NCBI RefSeq assembly: GCF_000317085.1
Contig: NC_019691.1
Coordinates: forward strand, 1-63,272
Origin: Synechococcus sp. PCC 7502
GTDB taxonomy: Bacteria; Cyanobacteriota; Cyanobacteriia; Pseudanabaenales; Pseudanabaenaceae
Length of the DNA stretch: 63,272 nt
Direction of reading: 5' to 3'
Shown here: positions 16,489 through 40,154 of the stretch, one piece after another
Layout: each line of letters begins with the position of its first letter
How positions within the stretch are numbered: the first letter of the stretch is position 1
Program-made: the position numbers and the translations under genes
Notes under the pieces: model-generated
Told to the model about the DNA's origin: nothing
The model's database searches: none
What the model saw: only the letters and a program-made list of their open reading frames with translations

Positions 16489-17085
16489 TCATATCTCATG
16501 AGTAGCAATTCTTTTTAGCATCAAGCGAATAAAGCAAAGATTGAGTTTAGCTGTAGCATTAACGAGAGTTCTCTCAAAGTTCTTAACTAAGATTTTGCAT
16601 CTTTCAACCCAAGCATTTGACCTTTCAATTACCCACCTTGTCGGCACAACTACAAACCCAGACAGACCTTTTTCTGCCTGCTTTTGCTTTGATACCTTAG
16701 GAGAAATTTCAAACCTAATCTTAGTCATAATCTCAGGATAAACCTTCTGTAAATCAGTCGTCAATTTTTCGATATGATAACCACTATCCAGCAATATCGT
16801 AGTTAGCGTAATGTCATCTGGCTTCGATTTGAAGTAATCAATGTTAAACGTTAACATCTCAATCAGTCCTTGGTCATCTGATACATTTGCTCTTGTTAAA
16901 TAGGTAAAGAAAGGAAATCCCAGAGTGTCAACGGCTAAATGTCTTTTGATCCCGTTAGTTGCTTTGTAGGAGCAGAAGCCCTTGGATTCTATACTTGCAT
17001 TACAGGTATTTTTCACTGCTTGTGAGTCAATGATGATTAAAGTTGTCCATTTTGATTTTTTTTGACTGTTCACGGGCTGTTGCAT
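16489..17085 (-). CDS. IS427-type transposase, OrfB (DDE catalytic part), copy 1
   Basis: Encodes the catalytic core. The first Asp is in IIIDSQAVK, the second in LLDSGYH, and the Glu in WVIERSNAWVE. It overlaps OrfA; a run of eight A residues in the overlap is the likely site of programmed frameshifting that makes the full transposase. Intact in this copy. Confidence 0.9.
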   Translation of the reverse strand: MQQPVNSQKKSKWTTLIIIDSQAVKNTCNASIESKGFCSYKATNGIKRHLAVDTLGFPFFTYLTRANVSDDQGLIEMLTFNIDYFKSKPDDITLTTILLDSGYHIEKLTTDLQKVYPEIMTKIRFEISPKVSKQKQAEKGLSGFVVVPTRWVIERSNAWVERCKILVKNFERTLVNATAKLNLCFIRLMLKRIATHEI

Positions 17086-19498: not shown

Positions 19499-20847
19499 TT
19501 ACACGTATTTACTTTTTACCCGCGCGCTTACACCTCCATTTGGTGCTAATGTTACCCCACGACGAACGGGCATAATTGGGAGTTTTCCAATTAGCTGTAA
19601 TTGACAGTGAGATAGAATTTCAACTATGACTAATTTGAGTTCTAATTGCGCCAATGCCATGCCCACACAGCGCCGACTACCGCCACCAAAAGGCAAGTAT
19701 TCATAGGGTGAAAACTGACGCTCTAAAAACCGTTCGGGCTTGAATAGATGTGGGTCGGGATAGGTATCTTCGCGGTGATGAGTGAGATAAATACAACCCA
19801 TTACTACGGTATTTGGTTTGATTTCATAACCACGGATTGATATTGATTCATTAGTAATTCTTGGAAACGTTAGCATTCCCACGGGATAAATTCTTAAAGT
19901 TTCGGCACATACTGCATTTAGGTATGGAAGTTTACTTAGGGATATGGCATCTGGTTCTGTCCCTAAAGTCGCAATTTCTGTCAGTATTTTTGTTTAACTT
20001 CAGGCAGATAATTAATCCAATATATTGCCCAAGCTAGAGCGGTTGCAGTAGTTTCATGCCCTGCAAATAAAAGAGTCATCAATTCATCGTGTAATTCTAG
20101 GTCGCTCATCCTATTGCCATCGGAATCTTGGGAGCTAATCAACATACTTAAAATGTCAGATCGCTCTTCGTTACTATTTTGACGGTGATCGCTAATTTCA
20201 TCATAGATTAGCCGATCTAGCTCAGCGCGATCGCGGACGAAACGCCTCCAGGGACTCCAAGCACCTAAATCTTTTTGCATAAACGGAAGAAATAGAAAAG
20301 CAGCATTAATTGGAGATTCAATTAGTGAGAGCATTTTGGATAATTTTTCCCGAATTTGATCGTATCTTTTATCTCGATCTAACCCAAAGACGGTTTGTAA
20401 AATGACTGAGAGTGTAATTTTTTCCATCTCTTTTCTGACATTAAGTTTCTCTCCTACTTGCCATCCTGCAATTAAGTTTCTAGTGATTTGTTGGATCGCA
20501 TTGGTATAATTCCGTACTTTATCACCATGAAATTGGGGCATCAGTAATTGTCGGCGTTGTCGATGCTCACGTCCATCTAAGAGGATAACCCCGCGATCGC
20601 CTAGAAAAGGCTTTAAGATTTGATTGATCGATCCAGGGGCTGAAAATTGTTTAGTATCGCTTGTTAATACTTGTTGAATTGCTTGAGGATGGCTGACAAA
20701 TACAGCGCCGTTAAAGACGCTAGACATATTCACTGTAAAAATATCTCCACACTCGCGATCAAACTTATGCAAATAATCGAGTGGTTCAACAATCCATTTC
20801 CATAATTGCAGGACTTTAGGCGAATTAATGGTAGGCGGTATGGTCAT
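19499..20847 (-). pseudogene. Cytochrome P450 (CYP110-like), single frameshift
   Basis: All P450 landmarks are present but in two frames. The N-terminal frame (20847 to 19981) has the C-helix HRQRRQLLMPQF and I-helix LLFAGHETTATA and breaks at LPEVKQK. The C-terminal frame resumes at LTEIATLGTEPDAI, with the ExxR motif AETLRIYP, PERFLERQF and the heme-ligand loop FGGGSRRCVG. One A missing from the run at 19987-19991 (T on the plus strand) explains the break. With it restored the protein would be ~450 aa, resembling cyanobacterial CYP110 enzymes. A sequencing error cannot be excluded. Confidence 0.85.
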
Positions 20848-21154: not shown

Positions 21155-22354
21155 ATGTCTAAGAACAACGTCCAAATTAGTGTTTCTGCCCTAACCCAAA
21201 AGATTACTAAGCTGCTCAGAGAAGGTATTGGCGAAGTTAGAGTACTGGGTGAAATTTCGGGCTATAAAGCTGCGTCCTCTGGGCATAGATATTTCACACT
21301 CAAAGATGATGAAGCTCAAATAGACTGTGTGCTTTGGGGTAGCAAGCAAATCTCGTTTATGCCACGAGGGGCAAGTACCAAATAGACTGCCAAAGTTTGA
21401 TACCTGCGGGTCAGGGCGAGTTATATCTTGCCTTTGAGCGACTAAAACAGGATTTAGCTGATGGTGGATTTTTTGATCGCAAGCGTCCTATCCCAGCATT
21501 ACCTTTGCATATAGGCATAGTGACTTCTCGCACGGGAGCAGCCATACAGGATATGTTATCTACTCTTAATAGGCGATCGCCCCACTGTCAGATTTATCTT
21601 TGTCCAGCTAGCGTTCAAGGTGAATATGCTTCTGAAGAAATTGCCAATGCCATTACCAGACTAAATCAAGTCCTGCTGGGTTTTGATAATGCGGTATTGA
21701 TCGTGGGTGGTGGTGGTGGTTCCCTAGAAGATTTATGGGCTTTCAATACTTTACCCGTTGCCGAGGCTATTTATAATTCCGAAATTCCTATAATCTCCGC
21801 AGTGGGGCATGAGACAGATTTTACGATCGCTGATTTTGTTGCCGATGTCCGTGTCGCTACGCCAACCGCCGCCGCCGAATTGGTAACTCAGAGCGATCGC
21901 AATACTTTACTGGGCTTTATTCAATCGGTTGAGCAAGAGTTAACTGAAAATATTCAAGCAGTCTTAGAGTCTAAGAAGCAAAAGATTGATCGCCTAATTA
22001 ATAGCTATGGATTTCAGAAATTGAGCGATCGCATTCACAACTACAGCCAAAGAGTAGATGAAGTCGAGAATGCCTTAACCAAGCTGATAAATCGTAACTT
22101 AAAAACTGCTAGAACTAAACTAGATGCTCTTGAAGCTCATGGTAAATCGCTGCATCCATTGTCTCCTCTAAAACGTGGTTATGCATTACTAAAAGATGGT
22201 GAACATATTATTTCTGCCAATGAATCTTTGAGTAAATTTGACCAGATAGCGATTACCTTGCGGTATGCGTTCCGCCGTGCGTAATACCGAAGTTGCCCAT
22301 GCTACGATCCAGACCGTAAAGCCCAAACTAACATATCACCATGACCAGCTTTGA
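21155..22354 (+). pseudogene. xseA: Exonuclease VII large subunit, frameshifted twice
   Basis: The N-terminal OB-fold frame (VLGEISGYKAASSGHRYFTL to FMPRG) ends early at 21385. Continuation GKYQIDCQSLIPAGQGELYL lies in the next frame, and about 17-20 residues expected in between are missing, so a deletion with frame change occurred near 21360-21370. The catalytic domain is otherwise well kept (GIVTSRTGAA, VGGGGGSLEDLWAFN, SAVGHETDFTIADFVAD). A second shift near 22260-22270 moves the conserved C-terminus (MRSAVRNTEVAHATIQTV) to another frame, ending at a TGA (22352-22354) that overlaps xseB. The product cannot be functional as read. Confidence 0.82.
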
Positions 22355-22531: not shown

Positions 22532-23275
22532 ATGGGAATTAGTTATCATTTTCAAGCATTTAACTTTTTGAAAAATAATCCGTCTCTATGGGGCTATATT
22601 ACTATTCCAATTTTGATTAATGTATTTGTCGGTATAGCTCTGTACTTTGGTTTACTAATTCCTGGGTTGCAGTGGATAGATACAGTGATCTTAAATTTGC
22701 CCACATGGTTAACTGTTCTATCTGGTATCCTGCATTTTGTCTTTGGCTTAGGTATATTGATATTAGTTGGACTATTGATCGTGCAAATTGGCGTAATTTT
22801 AGGCTCACCTTGGTACGGTCAGCTAGCCGAACAAATTGAAAAACTGAAAATTAATAATTTACCCACAGAAGAGACTTTTAGTTTTGGCAGGACGATCTCT
22901 GATGTTTTTAGAGCTTTATTGTTTGAGGTAAAAAAATTAGCTTTGATAGCGATATGTAGCTTTTTAACATTTGTACTTAGTATAGCGATCGCTCCCGTGG
23001 CTCCTGTAATAGCAGGAATAGTTGGCATAATTCTATCGACAATTTTAATGTGTTTAGATTTCCTCGACCCTGCTTTGGAGAGAAGAAGACTTAGCTTTAG
23101 AAACAAACTAGGCTGGATAATTCGCTCTGCCCCAGCTAGTATCGGGTTTGGTTTAGGTTGTGTTGTTTTAACCAGCATCCCAATTTTGAACTTTCTGACG
23201 GTGCCTCTCTGTATGGTGGCTGGGACTTTATTCTTTTGTGATCGCATTTGGCAAAGAATTGAAACTACTTCGTAA
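22532..23275 (+). CDS. EI24 / CysZ-like integral membrane protein
   Basis: A 247-aa protein with several hydrophobic spans (about residues 20-45, 65-95, 130-175 and 200-235). A charged middle loop (QLAEQIEKLKINNLPTEE) and FLDPALERRRLSFRNKLGWI are typical of the EI24 domain family, which includes the sulfate permease CysZ. Five bases separate it from xseB on the same strand, so it is co-transcribed. No sulfur-assimilation genes are nearby, so a sulfate role is not supported by context. Confidence 0.8.
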   Translation: MGISYHFQAFNFLKNNPSLWGYITIPILINVFVGIALYFGLLIPGLQWIDTVILNLPTWLTVLSGILHFVFGLGILILVGLLIVQIGVILGSPWYGQLAEQIEKLKINNLPTEETFSFGRTISDVFRALLFEVKKLALIAICSFLTFVLSIAIAPVAPVIAGIVGIILSTILMCLDFLDPALERRRLSFRNKLGWIIRSAPASIGFGLGCVVLTSIPILNFLTVPLCMVAGTLFFCDRIWQRIETTS

Positions 23276-23350: not shown

Positions 23351-24079
23351 TTACTTTCTGATAGTAGCGATCTCCTGTAAAATTTCAGAATTATTTGAAA
23401 TAATAGTTTGATTTACATTGGCAGTATTTTCCCTCCCTGTCTGAACTGCTCCGACAGTGGCGTAGAAATTTTGAATAATATTATTGATTTCATACTTATG
23501 CTGAGCAGCAGATTCCTTTTCCTGTTGTGAAAAGGTCATTCCTTCCCCTAAAATTCCCTTCTCTTCCAATTCCAATGACCATCTTAGGATAGTGTTCCTA
23601 ATAGTTTCCAGTATTCTACCGATACTCACATTCATAATACAAAGCATTATTTTTAAGTCGATAGAATAGAAATCATAGATTTTTCTTTCTAATTCGGGAG
23701 CATCCCTTACTTGCAAATTTTTGGACTGATTAAAAAGTATCTCTAAATCGCTGATAGCCGAGTATAAATATTTAGATCTACCTTGCAAAGACTCAAAAAT
23801 TTCATCTTGATCGTCTCCCACAATTGGTCGCCATCCATGCGAAGGTAAATGATATTCAATCAAACCCTTTAGATGGCGATATTCAGGGAGTACTAACATA
23901 TTTTGATATCCATTAAGTTCAGAGTTTATCCACTCCTTAAAGTCCTCAAGTTTTAACTTAGTGGCAACTAAGAGAGCTTTCCGAAGAAGGCTAAGAGTGG
24001 ATATCGATGGATCAAGTGCTTCCTTTTGTAAATCTAAAACAAGATAACTCAATTTATTTACTCTCCTGCCAGTCTTCAA
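23351..24079 (-). CDS. AbiTii-domain protein (candidate abortive-infection gene)
   Basis: A 242-aa protein. The N-terminal 60 residues (LSYLVLDLQKEAL, SLLRKALLVATKLKLEDFKE, WINSELNGY) match the AbiTii domain, found in a phage abortive-infection context. The rest is helical. The C-terminus carries NFYATVGAVQTGRENTANV, a motif shared with its upstream neighbour. The ATG at 24079 overlaps that neighbour by 26 bases; a TTG at 24052, preceded by CAGGAG and one base after the neighbour's stop, fits the domain start better. The two genes are surely one operon. Confidence 0.75.
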   Translation of the reverse strand: MKTGRRVNKLSYLVLDLQKEALDPSISTLSLLRKALLVATKLKLEDFKEWINSELNGYQNMLVLPEYRHLKGLIEYHLPSHGWRPIVGDDQDEIFESLQGRSKYLYSAISDLEILFNQSKNLQVRDAPELERKIYDFYSIDLKIMLCIMNVSIGRILETIRNTILRWSLELEEKGILGEGMTFSQQEKESAAQHKYEINNIIQNFYATVGAVQTGRENTANVNQTIISNNSEILQEIATIRK

Positions 24080-24692
24080 TCACTGCCATGAAAATATTTA
24101 CCAACGGGTTATCTAGTAACTCTTTGATTCCTTCAATACCACCCACCCTAATAGCAGAGATAATTCTAGCTTTCCAAGAAGAACTGTTTTCGATCTGCTC
24201 AACGGCTTTAGTAACAACTGCTAATTTTTCGGTTTGAGTATTTGTTGGATAAGTTTTAGCTAACTGATCAAGAAGTTCCTGAATTTCTTTAGCTGCGTCA
24301 ATGAGACTTTGCTGTGAGTAATTATTCTGAGTAACATGAGCTATATTGCGATCGCCATTTTGAACTGCTCCTACATTGCCATGAAAATTATTTGTAACTC
24401 CACTGGCTGAATTATTAAGTGATTGTTTCATTGACATAGCGTACTCCTGTAACTTAGATTTTGTTGCTTGATTGCTGACAAAGCCACTATTAAGTGTAGG
24501 GTGAGAAATTAGATGATAAGTAATAAGTAACCTAGTCAATATAGCTGTTGCCTCTTCTAAAGATAGTCCAGTATATTTAGCCACATCTTCGTCACTAATT
24601 CCATTCCAATCCTCTGGTTTAGAGTGGTCGTAAACAGCTTTTAATACAATGTATTCCTTCTGGTCATTTTCTAAAATATTATCTATATCCAT
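24054..24692 (-). CDS. Winged-helix protein with GAVQxG motif, partner of the AbiTii gene
   Basis: A 212-aa protein. The N-terminus looks like a winged helix (DEDVAKYTGLSLEEATAIL then RLLITYHLI). The middle has NNFHGNVGAVQNGDRNIAHV, sharing the GAVQxGxxNxAxV pattern with the AbiTii protein. The C-terminal ~90 residues (AAKEIQELLDQLAKTYPT, GGIEGIKELLDNPLVNIF) form a helical region that I recall in many cyanobacterial proteins of unknown function. Encoded just upstream of and coupled to the AbiTii gene. A defence role is inferred from context only. Confidence 0.6.
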   Translation of the reverse strand: MDIDNILENDQKEYIVLKAVYDHSKPEDWNGISDEDVAKYTGLSLEEATAILTRLLITYHLISHPTLNSGFVSNQATKSKLQEYAMSMKQSLNNSASGVTNNFHGNVGAVQNGDRNIAHVTQNNYSQQSLIDAAKEIQELLDQLAKTYPTNTQTEKLAVVTKAVEQIENSSSWKARIISAIRVGGIEGIKELLDNPLVNIFMAVIEDWQESK

Positions 24693-25123: not shown

Positions 25124-26230
25124 ATGATTGGCTCCCGTATAAAGCTAGCTCGGAAGAAAGCTGGCTATTCTTTACGAGGATTAGCTGATGCTTTGAATGG
25201 CAAAGTTAGTGCTCAAGCTATTGGCAAGTATGAACGTGATGAAATGACTCCAAGTTCAGATGTTTTGATTGCACTTAGTAAAACCTTAGAAGTATCAATA
25301 CATTATTTGCTTAATTCTCAACAAGTTGAACTTACTAATGTTGATTTTCGGACTAAAGCTAATACAACTGGAAAAGATCGCGCTCGTGTAGAGACTGAGG
25401 TTATTGAATGGGTTGAGCGATACCTAGAAATTGAACATATTTTAGAAATGAAAAGTGCTGAATGGAAGAAACCATTCGACAAAGTTGCTATTAATTCTGT
25501 AGCAGAGGCTGAAGCAGTAGCAATCAAATTGAGAGATGTGTGGAATCTTGGGACTGATCCAATCCCGAATATGACCGAATTATTGGAAGAGAAGGGATTA
25601 AAAGTTTTAGTTAGTGAGTTACCTAGTAATGTATCGGGATTTACTTGCCTTGTCCAAGGTGCCAGAATTAGTAATTTACCTATAATTGTCATAAATAGTC
25701 AGGTTTCCTTAGAACGGCGAAGACTAACACTTGCTCACGAGTTAGGACACAGACTTATCGATCCTGAACATCTATCAGAAAAAGAAGAAGAACAAGCTTG
25801 TAACCGTTTTGCAGCCGCTTTTTTAGTTCCCAAATCTCACCTTGAAAATGAAGTTGGACATTTACGACACTCTTTTGGCTATAGAGAGTTAATTTATCTG
25901 AAACAAATCTATCGAGTTAGTGGAGCGGCATTACTTGTGCGTCTAAGAAACATCGGCATAATAACTGATGCTATTCTCACTTACTCATTTCAGACTATTG
26001 CTCGGACTTGGCGGTCTAGTGAACCTGAGCCACTAGAAAATGAAGATGAGCGTGGGCAGAAAGAAAAACCTTGTCGATTTGAGAGGTTATGTTATCGAGC
26101 TTTAGCAGAAGACTTGATTTCAACCTCTAAAGCTGCGGAATTACTGCGCTATTCAATAGATAAAGTGGAAGCTGAATTAAAAGGAGAACCTCATATCCTT
26201 CATATAGAGCCTGTTTCATATCTATTATGA
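25124..26230 (+). CDS. XRE-family regulator with ImmA/IrrE metallopeptidase domain, 3' end replaced by IS sequence
   Basis: A 368-aa protein. The N-terminal XRE HTH (SRIKLARKKAGYSLRGLADA, residues 3-60) is followed by an ImmA/IrrE zinc peptidase domain with HELGH at residues 205-209 and the distal FAAAFLVP segment. Such proteins cleave repressors or act as antitoxin-like regulators. The last eight codons (IEPVSYLL) come from the IS end. Joining across the IS restores a natural end (HIKDAGHN, then TAG) overlapping the start of a PIN gene. The core is intact and may still work. Confidence 0.85.
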   Translation: MIGSRIKLARKKAGYSLRGLADALNGKVSAQAIGKYERDEMTPSSDVLIALSKTLEVSIHYLLNSQQVELTNVDFRTKANTTGKDRARVETEVIEWVERYLEIEHILEMKSAEWKKPFDKVAINSVAEAEAVAIKLRDVWNLGTDPIPNMTELLEEKGLKVLVSELPSNVSGFTCLVQGARISNLPIIVINSQVSLERRRLTLAHELGHRLIDPEHLSEKEEEQACNRFAAAFLVPKSHLENEVGHLRHSFGYRELIYLKQIYRVSGAALLVRLRNIGIITDAILTYSFQTIARTWRSSEPEPLENEDERGQKEKPCRFERLCYRALAEDLISTSKAAELLRYSIDKVEAELKGEPHILHIEPVSYLL

Positions 26231-26253: not shown

Positions 26254-26565
26254 ATGCTAAATCCATACTCAAGTAGCCTAACAGATAAAGAATGGGAAAT
26301 TATAGAACCATTGCTCCCAAAGAAAAAGCAAACTAGACCGCCAACTTGGACAAAAAGACAAATTTTAGACGGCATACTCTACCAACTCAAAAACGGTTGT
26401 AATTGGCGAGATATGCCCCGAGACTTACCACCATTCTCTACAGTGTATCGATACTACAAGGAGTGGAAAGATACAGGTACATTTACTGCGATTATGGAAG
26501 CTTTGGATTCAACAGCCCGTGAACAGTCAAAAAAAATCAAAATGGACAACTTTAATCATCATTGA
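26254..26565 (+). CDS. IS427-type transposase, OrfA, copy 2
   Basis: 103 aa, the same as copies 1 and 3 except for ALDSTAREQ in place of ALHATAREQ. It ends after the run of eight A residues within OrfB. Confidence 0.88.
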   Translation: MLNPYSSSLTDKEWEIIEPLLPKKKQTRPPTWTKRQILDGILYQLKNGCNWRDMPRDLPPFSTVYRYYKEWKDTGTFTAIMEALDSTAREQSKKIKMDNFNHH

Positions 26566-27087
26566 CTCACAAGCAGTGAAAAATACTTGTAATGCAAGTA
26601 TAGAATCCAAGGGCTTCTGCTCCTACAAAGCAACTAACGGGATCAAAAGACATTTAGCCGTTGACACTCTGGGATTTCCTTTCTTTACCTATTTAACAAG
26701 AGCAAATGTATCAGATGACCAAGGACTGATTGAGATGTTAACGATTAACATTGATTACTTCAAATCGAAGCCAGATGACATTACGCTAACTACGATATTG
26801 CTGGATAGTGGTTATCATATCGAAAAATTGACGACTGATTTACAGAAGGTTTATCCTGAGATTATGACTAAGATTAGGTTTGAAATTTCTCCTAAGGTAT
26901 CAAAGCAACAGAAGGCAGAAAAAGGTCTGTCTGGGTTTGTAGTTGTGCCGACAAGGTGGATACTTGGGTTGAAAGATGCAAAATCTTAGTTAAGAACTTT
27001 GAGAGAACTCTCGTTAATGCTACAGCTAAACTCAATCTTTGCTTTATTCGTTTGATGCTAAAAAGAATTGCTACTCATGAGATATGA
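26519..27087 (+). pseudogene. IS427-type transposase, OrfB, copy 2 (16-bp deletion)
   Basis: Reads like copy 1 until VVVPTRW. There a 16-bp deletion (around 26959) removes the codons for VIERSNAW, including the catalytic Glu, and shifts the frame to a stop at 26989. The rest of OrfB is still readable in another frame to 27087. This copy cannot make active transposase. Confidence 0.9.
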
Positions 27088-30712: not shown

Positions 30713-30717
30713 GTGTG

Positions 30718-31504
30718 ATGGCTTTATCTAGTCAGGAAAAGGTCAAGTTAGGTCAGTTTGTTGATTTAATTAATGGATTTGCGTTTGCGTCTGACAAGTT
30801 TACAGATGGTGAAGGAATTCCACTTATTAGAATCAGAGATCTCGAAAAACAAGAAACTGAAATAAATTATCTTGGAAGCTTTTCTGAATATTACTTGATT
30901 CGTAATAATGATCTTTTGATTGGAATGGATGGTGACTTTACTACTGTTAGGTGGAAAGGTGAACTTGCTCTTTTAAATCAACGAGTTTGTAAATTAGTAA
31001 CTAAGAATAAAAATAATCTCAATCAAGACTTTCTTTATTATCGAATCATTACTGAAATCAACCGTATTCATAAGATAACTTCTGCAACAACAGTTAAGCA
31101 TCTATCATCCAGAGATATTCTAGACATTCAAATTGAATTACCAGAGATTAAAGAACAGGAAAAAATTGCTGAAGTTTTGTCTACGATTGATCGGGCGATC
31201 GCCAAAACCGAAGCCATCATCGCCAAGCAGCAACGCATCAAAACGGGACTAATGCAGGACTTGCTCACCAAAGGCATCGATGAAAATGGCAATATCCGCA
31301 GTGAAGCCACTCATGAGTTTAAAGATTCTGCGATCGGGCGTATTCCTGTTGAGTGGGATGTTGAGCTATGTGGATCGATATGTAAAGAAATTATAGTTGG
31401 TATAGTAATTCGCCCTGCTCAATACTATAAGCCGTCAGGAGTTCCTGTTCTTCGATCAGCAAATGTTAAAGAAAATGCAATAGATTTTTCTGATCTAGTT
31501 TATA
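30718..31504 (+). pseudogene. hsdS: Type I restriction-modification specificity subunit, 5' part (split by IS)
   Basis: First target-recognition domain (QFVDLINGFAFASDKF, IPLIRIRDLE) and the central conserved coiled coil (IDRAIAKTEAIIAKQQRIKT, GLMQDLLTKGIDENG). The second TRD starts (IGRIPVEWDVEL) but is cut by IS copy 3 after DFSDLVY. The remainder lies at 32411-32884. The 5' part alone could still give a half-HsdS; such truncated subunits sometimes dimerise. ATG at 30718 overlaps the duplicated hsdM stop. Confidence 0.9.
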
Positions 31505-31513
31505 GAGCCTGTT

Positions 31514-32110
31514 TCATATCTCATGAGTAGCAATTCTTTTTAGCATCAAACGAATAAAGCAAAGATTGAGTTTAGCTGTAGCATTAACGAGAGTTCTCTC
31601 AAAGTTCTTAACTAAGATTTTGCATCTTTCAACCCAAGCATTTGACCTTTCAATTACCCACCTTGTCGGCACAACTACAAACCCAGACAGACCTTTTTCT
31701 GCCTGCTTTTGCTTTGATACCTTAGGAGAAATTTCAAGCCTAATCTTAGTCATAATCTCAGGATAAACCTTCTGTAAATCAGTCGTCAATTTTTCGATAT
31801 GATAACCACTATCCAGCAATATCGTAGTTAGGGTAATGTCATCTGGCTTCGATTTGAAGTAATCAATGTTAAACGTTAACATCTCAATCAGTCCTTGGTC
31901 ATCTGATACATTTGCTCTTGTTAAATAGGTAAAGAAAGGAAATCCCAGAGTGTCAACGGCTAAATGTCTTTTGATCCCGTTAGTTGCTTTGTAGGAGCAG
32001 AAGCCCTTGGATTCTATACTTGCATTACAGGTATTTTTCACTGCTTGTGAGTCAATGATGATTAAAGTTGTCCATTTTGATTTTTTTTGACTGTTCACGG
32101 GCTGTTGCAT
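31514..32110 (-). CDS. IS427-type transposase, OrfB, copy 3
   Basis: Intact catalytic part (Asp in IIIDSQ, Asp in LLDSGYH, Glu in VIERSNAW). One substitution from copy 1 is visible (RLEIS for RFEIS). Confidence 0.9.
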   Translation of the reverse strand: MQQPVNSQKKSKWTTLIIIDSQAVKNTCNASIESKGFCSYKATNGIKRHLAVDTLGFPFFTYLTRANVSDDQGLIEMLTFNIDYFKSKPDDITLTTILLDSGYHIEKLTTDLQKVYPEIMTKIRLEISPKVSKQKQAEKGLSGFVVVPTRWVIERSNAWVERCKILVKNFERTLVNATAKLNLCFIRLMLKRIATHEI

Positions 32111-32410: not shown

Positions 32411-32884
32411 TATATGTCTCAAAAAGACAATGATTCTCTTAGCAAAAGCCGTTTATTCGCAGGAGATTTAGTTACTGTTAGAACAGGCTACCCAGGGACG
32501 ACAGCGGTTATTCCACCTGAATTAGATGGCTGTAACTGTGTTGATATAGTGATTTCAAGACCAGACACTCGACAAATTAGATCAAGTTTTTTAGCTTTAT
32601 GGATTAATTCAGACTTCGGAAAAAAACAAGTTTTAGAGGGGCAAGGAGGATTAGCTCAACAACACTTTAATGTTGGAGAAGTTCGTAAACTATTAGTAAA
32701 AGTTCCTACGGTAAAAGAGCAATTACGAATTGAGAATTTTTTGTTTATGCAAAGCAATAGCCTACTGAAATATCAACAGCATTTAAGAAAGCTACAAAGG
32801 TTAAAAACTGGACTTATGCAAGACCTCCTAACTGGCAAAGTCCGCGTTACCAATCTCCTCAACCAAAAAGCACCAGCAAATTAA
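32411..32884 (+). pseudogene. hsdS: hsdS, 3' part
   Basis: Rest of the second target-recognition domain (SRLFAGDLVTVRTGYPGT, QVLEGQGGLAQQHFNVGEVR) and the distal conserved helix (KLQRLKTGLMQDLLTGKVRV). Removing the IS and one TATA joins DLVY to MSQKD in frame, so the gene was whole before insertion. Confidence 0.9.
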
Positions 32885-39165: not shown

Positions 39166-39306
39166 TGTATTTATGTATTGCTAACTTGTCGGCAATATAA
39201 CATTATGATCATTGCTTGTGCAAATCAAAAAGGTGGGGTAGCAAAAACCACGACAGTTATCTCCTTGGGTGGATTGCTACTAAATTCTGGTTCTTGTTTA
39301 GTCGTT
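39166..39306 (+). repeat. Partial duplication of the parA promoter and 5' end
   Basis: About 141 bp here match 39363-39503 with roughly four mismatches, covering the TTAACTTGTCGG box and the first ~35 codons of parA. The repeat period is 197 bp. Confidence 0.9.
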
Positions 39307-39348
39307 GCAACTTGCTGTATTTACATATTGTTAACAAGTTGTTGCTAA
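39205..39348 (+). pseudogene. Truncated parA 5' fragment (47 codons)
   Basis: The ATG at 39205 opens the same N-terminus as parA, including the deviant Walker A KGGVAKTTT, up to CLVV. It then diverges (ATCCIYILLTSCC) and stops at 39346-39348. It keeps the same upstream box and start context, so a short peptide could be translated. Most likely a relic of duplication. Confidence 0.75.
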
Positions 39349-39401
39349 TTTTTCTAGCTTCCTGTATTTATATATTGTTAACTTGTCGGCAATATAACAT
39401 T

Positions 39402-40154
39402 ATGATCATTGCTTGTGCAAATCAAAAAGGTGGGGTAGCAAAAACCACGACAGTTATCTCCTTAGGGGGATTGCTACTAAATTCTGGTTCTTGTTTAGTC
39501 GTTGACCTAGATCCTCAGGGAAATTTGACCACTGGTTTGGGGGTTGAGATTCAGGAAAATCAAATTACTACATACGAAGTAATTACTGAGCGCGCGACTG
39601 CTAGTGACAGCTTGATGACCACATCGAGTGGGCTAAGCTTAATGCCTAGTGATATCAATTTAGCTAAGGGAGAGCCAGAGATTTTATCGAAAGTCGGCAA
39701 CTTTGGATTGTTAAAAGAATTTCTCGAACCAATTAGGTATAAATTCGATCATATATTAATTGATTGTCCTCCTAGTCTGGGATTGCTAACTATCAATGGG
39801 TTAACTGCTGCTGATGCGGTATTAATTCCTGTACAGTGTCAATTTTTTGCACTTAAAGGATTGGCTTCTCTATTAGAGACGATCCAAAGTGTTCAAAAGC
39901 GTCTTAATCCAAATTTAAAAATTTTAGGTGTTCTACCAACAATGGCGGAACCTCAAACTTTAATGACCCAAGATGTTCTAGTTTCACTTAAGAAACGATT
40001 ACAGAATATTCATGTTTTTGATCCTGTACCCAAGTCAATAAAGTTTTCTGAATCAAATCTGGCTGGCGAACCCATTAGTGTTTATTCAGGTCACAAAAAG
40101 TTAGTTCAACCTTACCAAGTGATCGCCGATTTAATACAAGCGGGAAACAAATAA
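39402..40154 (+). CDS. parA: ParA-family partition ATPase
   Basis: A 250-aa type Ib-like ParA without an N-terminal DNA-binding domain. The deviant Walker A KGGVAKTTT is at residues 9-17, VVDLDPQGNLTTGL is motif A', and HILIDCPPSLG is Walker B. C-terminal sequence (SNLAGEPISVYSGH) is complete. I place the start at ATG 39402 because the duplicated upstream copy shares exactly this start; the longer open frame from 39216 runs through the duplication. The small size fits a partner that is a short ribbon-helix-helix centromere binder, as encoded downstream. Confidence 0.92.
   Translation: MIIACANQKGGVAKTTTVISLGGLLLNSGSCLVVDLDPQGNLTTGLGVEIQENQITTYEVITERATASDSLMTTSSGLSLMPSDINLAKGEPEILSKVGNFGLLKEFLEPIRYKFDHILIDCPPSLGLLTINGLTAADAVLIPVQCQFFALKGLASLLETIQSVQKRLNPNLKILGVLPTMAEPQTLMTQDVLVSLKKRLQNIHVFDPVPKSIKFSESNLAGEPISVYSGHKKLVQPYQVIADLIQAGNK

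Follow-up and report, generated by a model that had tools for sequence, protein, structure and literature searches.

Two leftward genes lie end to end at positions 23351-24692 of the window, by which we mean the whole 63,272-base stretch of DNA analysed here. The upstream gene encodes P0001, in which a winged helix, a short motif and a helical domain follow one another, and the downstream gene encodes P0002, a short AbiTii protein that ends at a second copy of the motif. The features of the locus are as follows:

24054..24692, (-) strand: gene 1, P0001, 212 aa, ATG start; winged helix, motif and helical domain; AbiTi-like partner
24408..24692, (-) strand: N-terminal domain of P0001, aa 1-95, resembling DNA-binding winged helices (VIA Z up to 12.0 for the AlphaFold2 model)
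24324..24392, (-) strand: shared motif in P0001, aa 101-123, NNFHGNVGAVQNGDRNIAHVTQN; unstructured in the monomer model
24063..24329, (-) strand: C-terminal domain of P0001, aa 122-210, made of four helices; mobile in cyanobacteria
24061..24066, (-) strand: GGAGAG within the end of gene 1, the likely ribosome-binding site of gene 2, read from the sequence
23351..24052, (-) strand: gene 2, P0002, 233 aa, TTG start; short AbiTii protein
23495..24043, (-) strand: AbiTii domain of P0002, aa 4-186 (PF18864, 3e-45; PADLOC AbiTii, 1.1e-44)
23408..23485, (-) strand: shared motif forming the tail of P0002, aa 190-215, NNIIQNFYATVGAVQTGRENTANVNQ; the place where fused AbiTii-AbiTi proteins start their AbiTi part

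The preliminary description had taken the two neighbouring genes to be translationally linked, and the open reading frames agree: a single base separates the stop of gene 1 from the TTG of gene 2 on the same strand, with GGAGAG ahead of the TTG, so that the locus has the adjacent, co-directional two-gene layout of the AbiT two-component system. The next gene begins only ~75 bases beyond P0002, which is therefore not obviously broken. The window is an entire contig (C1) with a ParA gene at 39216-40154 and is therefore probably a plasmid. The neighbours of the pair are a gene of the HTH-M78 type and a type I restriction-modification cluster; the former, a divergent HTH + M78 (ImmA/IrrE-like) peptidase gene at 25124-26230 that matches the PADLOC RmrA models at 5e-48, adjoins the pair and separates it from the latter. 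A near-identical transposase occurs in three copies (16489-17085, 26254-26989 and 31514-32110), the third of them lying between 30715-31530 and 32414-32884, two parts of one type I specificity gene that looks disrupted. On the other side of the pair an exonuclease VII large-subunit-like gene (xseA, 21155-22284) and a cytochrome P450-like gene (19499-20847) each seem to occupy two reading frames, through a frameshift or an assembly error, and an EI24-family gene (22532-23275) is intact, with a decayed second copy containing stops on the chromosome (C3:2926976-2927563).

The AbiTii identity of P0002, proposed earlier from the letters alone, is firmly established by the HMM searches, since both the Pfam family PF18864 and the PADLOC AbiTii model match (values above), and the conserved AbiTii residues are E45, G48, Y49, P56, Y58 and R59; P0002 is thus an AbiTii protein with the PF18864 domain, as AbiT systems have. 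Compared with solved and viral structures, the predicted structure matches none significantly (Foldseek E of 0.35 at best in the PDB; VIA Z <=5.6) and therefore suggests no enzyme, an absence that does not prove the fold to be new. A search of the phage collection with P0002 returned no match; AbiTii is present in proviral contigs.

P0001 has no Pfam family above the cut-off, and its winged helix is without a family match. Its AlphaFold2 model, built from 3 input sequences and with a mean pLDDT of 67, shows a winged helix and, after an unstructured stretch, four C-terminal helices. Within this model residues ~1-100 resemble the winged-helix DNA-binding domains of PadR, MarR and CggR (VIA Z up to 12.0, the value for the CggR DNA-binding domain, with an rmsd of 2.2 over 87 residues). 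The N-terminal winged-helix-like region described from the sequence is thus recovered as a predicted fold, and we treat the N-terminus as a DNA-binding-like winged helix with putative DNA binding. The C-terminal helical domain (~90 aa) had been called common in cyanobacterial proteins; it occurs in 49 of 386 cyanobacterial genomes, alone or after pentapeptide repeats, an HD protein or Roc-COR GTPases, and a related class of glycine/asparagine-rich stretch usually precedes it. The end of one Roc-COR GTPase (L060, 1-1923) combines the same motif class (NFHNSVGQVVTGDQNVAGDN) with this helical domain. P0001-type winged helices are otherwise rare in the phylum, and no relatives of the helical domain were found in viral contigs.

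How closely P0001 is related to AbiTi was approached with several profiles. The curated AbiTi model (PADLOC PDLC02333) does not match P0001 at E up to 1, which rules P0001 out as a strict AbiTi member. An AbiTi-type HMM built without P0001 matches its residues 88-182 weakly, at 0.0016, and a profile-profile alignment (hhalign) of the cyanobacterial with the AbiTi helical domain is not significant; because of these three results we call the pair AbiT-like rather than AbiT. The PADLOC candidate PDC-M14B matches P0001 at 1e-4 over profile positions 137-234 of 267 only, short of its full length, and this C-terminal part of PDC-M14B is common to AbiTi-type proteins. The family search placed no NTPase family in either P0001 or P0002.

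The two proteins were said to carry the same short motif, GAVQxGxxNxAxV, which we find at residues 108-120 of P0001 and 201-213 of P0002, inside Asn/Gln/Gly-rich stretches in both; its local alignment score of 63 exceeds the maximum of 56 in 20,000 shuffles. In P0002 the motif is the C-terminal tail of the AbiTii protein and in P0001 it lies between two domains; both stretches are unstructured in the AlphaFold2 monomers (pLDDT <50, in P0001 over residues 90-126). In its coding form the pattern VGAVQ[TNK]G has exactly two sites in the 3.58-Mb genome, one per gene, and among the 386 cyanobacterial genomes this is the only one with the pattern in this context. In 13 other genomes it falls in unrelated proteins or outside plausible genes, at about the frequency of the reversed control. 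Nine viral contigs match the pattern, in none of which an ORF carries it as a motif, and plasmids yielded no match to a 24-aa motif query. The idea that GAVQ is a widespread linker unrelated to pairing can therefore be set aside. The broader class to which it belongs, VGxVxxGdxxV, was found by the family search before the P0001-type helical domain in many cyanobacterial proteins: the motif class is common and the GAVQ form alone is rare. The two copies use different codons at 7 of 12 identical motif residues and are therefore not a recent DNA copy.

The relatives of P0002 place the pair in a wider setting. Most AbiTii proteins of plasmids and proviruses are ~295 aa long and consist of the AbiTii domain, a motif (e.g., GDVSGSQIQIGSNSSNQTQ) and then a helical domain, as on plasmids of Vibrio, Pseudomonas, Aeromonas and Brevibacillus; the C-terminal part of the Vibrio protein matches the PADLOC AbiTi model at 1.1e-7, and we therefore read the long AbiTii proteins as AbiTii-AbiTi fusions. 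Nearly all of them scored as AbiTii plus an AbiTi-type part, a few (e.g., L116, L141) falling below the cut-off for the second part. Nor do they have a separate AbiTi-type neighbour, except in Nostoc and in a tandem array in Aeromonas. This array, on plasmid pAER-f909 (L056, 862-8432), comprises six AbiTii ORFs of tandem AbiTii-AbiTi fusions in ~7.4 kb, and the plasmid record has AbiTii at nine places.

Short AbiTii proteins, by contrast with the fusions, end at the motif. We compared eight loci of this kind (the window, L036, L037, L039, L040, L117, L122 and L076), and in seven of the eight, or four of five once close relatives are merged, a neighbouring gene carries the same motif with a helical domain; the sole exception is an Enterococcus locus (L076), which lacks a matched partner. 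The sequence of the motif varies between loci and matches within each locus. Two proviruses (L117 and L122) are laid out as the window is, with a motif plus AbiTi-domain gene followed, after 12 and 9 bases respectively, by a short AbiTii gene in whose product the tail repeats the motif (NNFYGNITNSQIQQN / NNYFYGDVSDSQIQQN). The PADLOC AbiTi model itself starts at the motif: the L117 partner matches AbiTi positions 4-112 at 1.9e-13, and the tail of the L117 short AbiTii protein alone matches positions 3-27 at 6e-4. In Melainabacteria-type genomes (L036-L040) a short AbiTii with the tail NFNFNSFDNSTQN faces a small convergent gene with NFSFNSFDNSTQN and a helical domain. A small beta-rich N-terminal domain precedes the motif and AbiTi-type domain in the L117 partner (1396-2022) and in L128-L131; proteins of this build are widespread on Enterobacteriaceae conjugative plasmids (IncA and others), with no adjoining AbiTii in the loci read.

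A winged helix precedes the P0001-type helical domain, as in the window, at two further loci. At the Pseudanabaena frigida locus (L002) the gene for a 356-aa protein carrying NFNGNVGAVQTGNHNIAHVTQNN comes before that for a 206-aa winged-helix protein carrying NINAEKIGAVQTGNYNTANVTQNF; the locus retains the GAVQ motif and a C-terminus of the P0001 type, but AbiTii is absent and a winged helix takes its place. Here 9 of 16 identical motif residues have different codons. On a Nostoc plasmid (L077) an AbiTii gene is followed by one for a winged-helix/motif/helical protein, in the reverse order to that of the window; the motif differs from GAVQ, yet the motifs of the two neighbours resemble each other (GVVAGGNINGNLTN and GGVAGRDYTGDVTHN), and the Nostoc AbiTii has a partner although a helical part is already fused to it. 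Co-occurrence of the two genes in other genomes, on which the preliminary description had staked its proposal, is thus real but rare, AbiTii being found with a winged-helix/motif/helical protein once more, in Nostoc.

To assess the matching itself, each first-gene motif region was scored against each second-gene region. The true assignment was the best of 120 with five loci, among the top 5 of 5040 with seven, and the best of 24 for four independent motif groups; as the loci are few and some are related, 1 in 24 is the honest figure. The earlier suggestion that the shared motif marks cooperating proteins gains from the recurrence of matched pairs with other motifs (L077, L036-L040, L117/L122) and from the fact that the halves are mostly fused, and at the level of sequence comparison we consider it well supported. 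The more interesting and general result is the match between the AbiTi-type and AbiTii proteins of a locus in a motif specific to that locus; the open-licence literature naming AbiTii, in the portions available, makes no mention of such a shared motif.

Taking as our observed basis the domains, the operon layout, the match and rarity of the motif and the recurrence of matched motifs at other split loci, we propose that the locus is probably a split, two-gene AbiT-like pair of the abortive-infection type, joined by a homotypic motif. Gene 2 would supply a short AbiTii and gene 1 an AbiTi-like partner with an N-terminal winged helix, and the matched Asn/Gln/Gly-rich motif would be the homotypic interface through which P0001 and P0002 bind and co-assemble. 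The two chains would in this way do the job of the single-chain AbiTii-AbiTi fusion, in which association is made permanent, and the winged helix may add the sensing of a signal or regulation of the operon. Assembly may free one or other domain to act, and phage infection would be the trigger. Of the two, the AbiTi-type helical part is more likely to be the harmful one, because an AbiTi homologue of C. catus is described as toxic in one report (PMC3985639). That single report and the name of the AbiT family are what point to a possible role in phage defence or regulated death. The occurrence of AbiTii genes elsewhere on plasmids and proviruses speaks for the split pair, as does the position of this one beside the HTH-M78 gene and the type I restriction-modification cluster. 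Against it count the lack of a match to the curated AbiTi model, the non-significant profile-profile alignment, the small and partly related set of loci behind the pairing figures, the unmatched Enterococcus locus, the Nostoc AbiTii with its fused part and partner, and the C. catus and L. lactis results given below; the matched motif could also partly stem from an old duplication within the locus.

Carried to its end, such a duplication yields an improbable alternative in which the locus is a relic: P0002 would be what is left of an AbiTii-AbiTi fusion after loss of the helical domain, P0001 would have gained its motif by local duplication, and the two would no longer interact. P0002 does stop where the fused proteins run on into AbiTi, and the motif copies of one Melainabacteria-type locus (L039) are 83% identical in DNA; in the window and in P. 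frigida, however, the synonymous motif sites have diverged with the residues kept, and proviruses and Melainabacteria-type genomes show the same arrangement around motifs of their own. A toxin-antitoxin type of operon is a stronger contender, if still an unlikely one. Under it the winged-helix protein would be a DNA-binding autoregulator and antitoxin that holds a toxic AbiTii through the motif until infection frees it, as might be read from the regulator-like first gene, the translational coupling, the similarity of the winged helix to PadR/MarR domains, the conserved glutamate of AbiTii (also noted in PMC3710099) and, from the same source, the fusion of AbiTii elsewhere to HEPN domains. Yet other AbiTi-type partners (L037, L117) have no winged helix, the AbiTii model matches no solved structure significantly and hence points to no enzyme, and according to PMC3985639 it is AbiTi, not AbiTii, that is the toxin in C. 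catus, where it inhibits growth of E. coli and AbiTii, without a neutralising effect, is not its antitoxin; AbiTi and AbiTii of L. lactis, each alone, are described there as not toxic in E. coli.

Somewhat less likely again is amyloid-type signalling, in which the motif would belong to the bacterial amyloid signalling motifs and one protein, once ordered into a seed, would template the other into fibres, as in the NLR/BASS pairs of filamentous bacteria. Neighbouring genes with matched motifs are the signature of bacterial amyloid signalling (BASS) pairs, whose families came to light through neighbour comparisons of this sort (PMC7889193, PMC8086366), and the layout is alike: the genes are adjacent, the N/Q/G-rich motif is terminal in one protein and internal in the other, changes between loci while matching within them, and is unstructured in the monomer models. 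The stretch VQNGDRNI of P0001 also resembles VQVGDGNV of a Frankia BASS3 motif. The core common to RHIM, PP and BASS3, G-phi-Q-phi-G (PMC7885112), is nonetheless absent, the window having AVQNG and AVQTG, the similarity to the BASS3 peptide does not reach significance (shuffle p 0.08 and 0.51), and the family search finds neither an NLR nor any other NTPase receptor in P0001 or P0002. Membership in BASS3 or RHIM is accordingly unsupported by the sequence.

The split, motif-joined pair thus remains the reading we prefer, and it may extend further. As a tentative generalisation, AbiT systems at large might be built on a homotypic motif particular to each locus, which could form an amyloid-like or else a finite beta assembly. 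It would couple an AbiTi-type helical effector to interchangeable parts (AbiTii, winged helices, GTPases and the small beta-rich domain), and one partner could be swapped for another with a matching motif; if true, bacterial immunity would have a modular signalling code that needs no NLRs. The split pair itself, if rightly read, would show motif-matched signalling outside NLR pairs, in a small defence system of two genes. AbiT dates from 2002; a 2023 review (PMC10286901) still describes its molecular mechanism as unknown and maps escape mutants to two early phage genes and the one for the major capsid protein. A matched, locus-specific motif in AbiTi-type and AbiTii proteins makes this open mechanism directly testable, as the motif can be removed, or exchanged between loci, and so offers a handle on the cohesion of the pair and on partner choice.

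Among known systems the nearest is AbiT (AbiTi + AbiTii) of Lactococcus lactis, whose founding pair was compared through the PADLOC models only, with no Lactococcus plasmid among the matches listed. The window shares with it an adjacent two-gene locus, a PF18864 AbiTii, a motif plus helical partner in the position of AbiTi, and relatives on plasmids and proviruses; it differs in that the partner has a winged helix and a cyanobacterial-type helical domain that falls below the AbiTi model, and its GAVQ motif contrasts with the SQIQQ-like form of the proviruses L117 and L122. The fused AbiTii-AbiTi proteins (~295 aa) have the same AbiTii domain with the same kind of motif directly after it, whereas their helical domain is in the same chain and there is no separate partner. 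The 356-aa protein of P. frigida is a strong member of PDC-M14B (5.8e-42) and is ~66-68% identical to P0001 over motif and C-terminus; P0001 lacks the N-terminal domain of PDC-M14B and matches it by the motif and helical part alone (1e-4). With the BASS pairs of filamentous bacteria (NLR/Bell) the window has in common that neighbouring genes encode products with a short matched motif; without an NLR, the G-phi-Q-phi-G core or significant similarity to BASS3, its likeness to bacterial amyloid-signalling motifs is one of layout and not of sequence.
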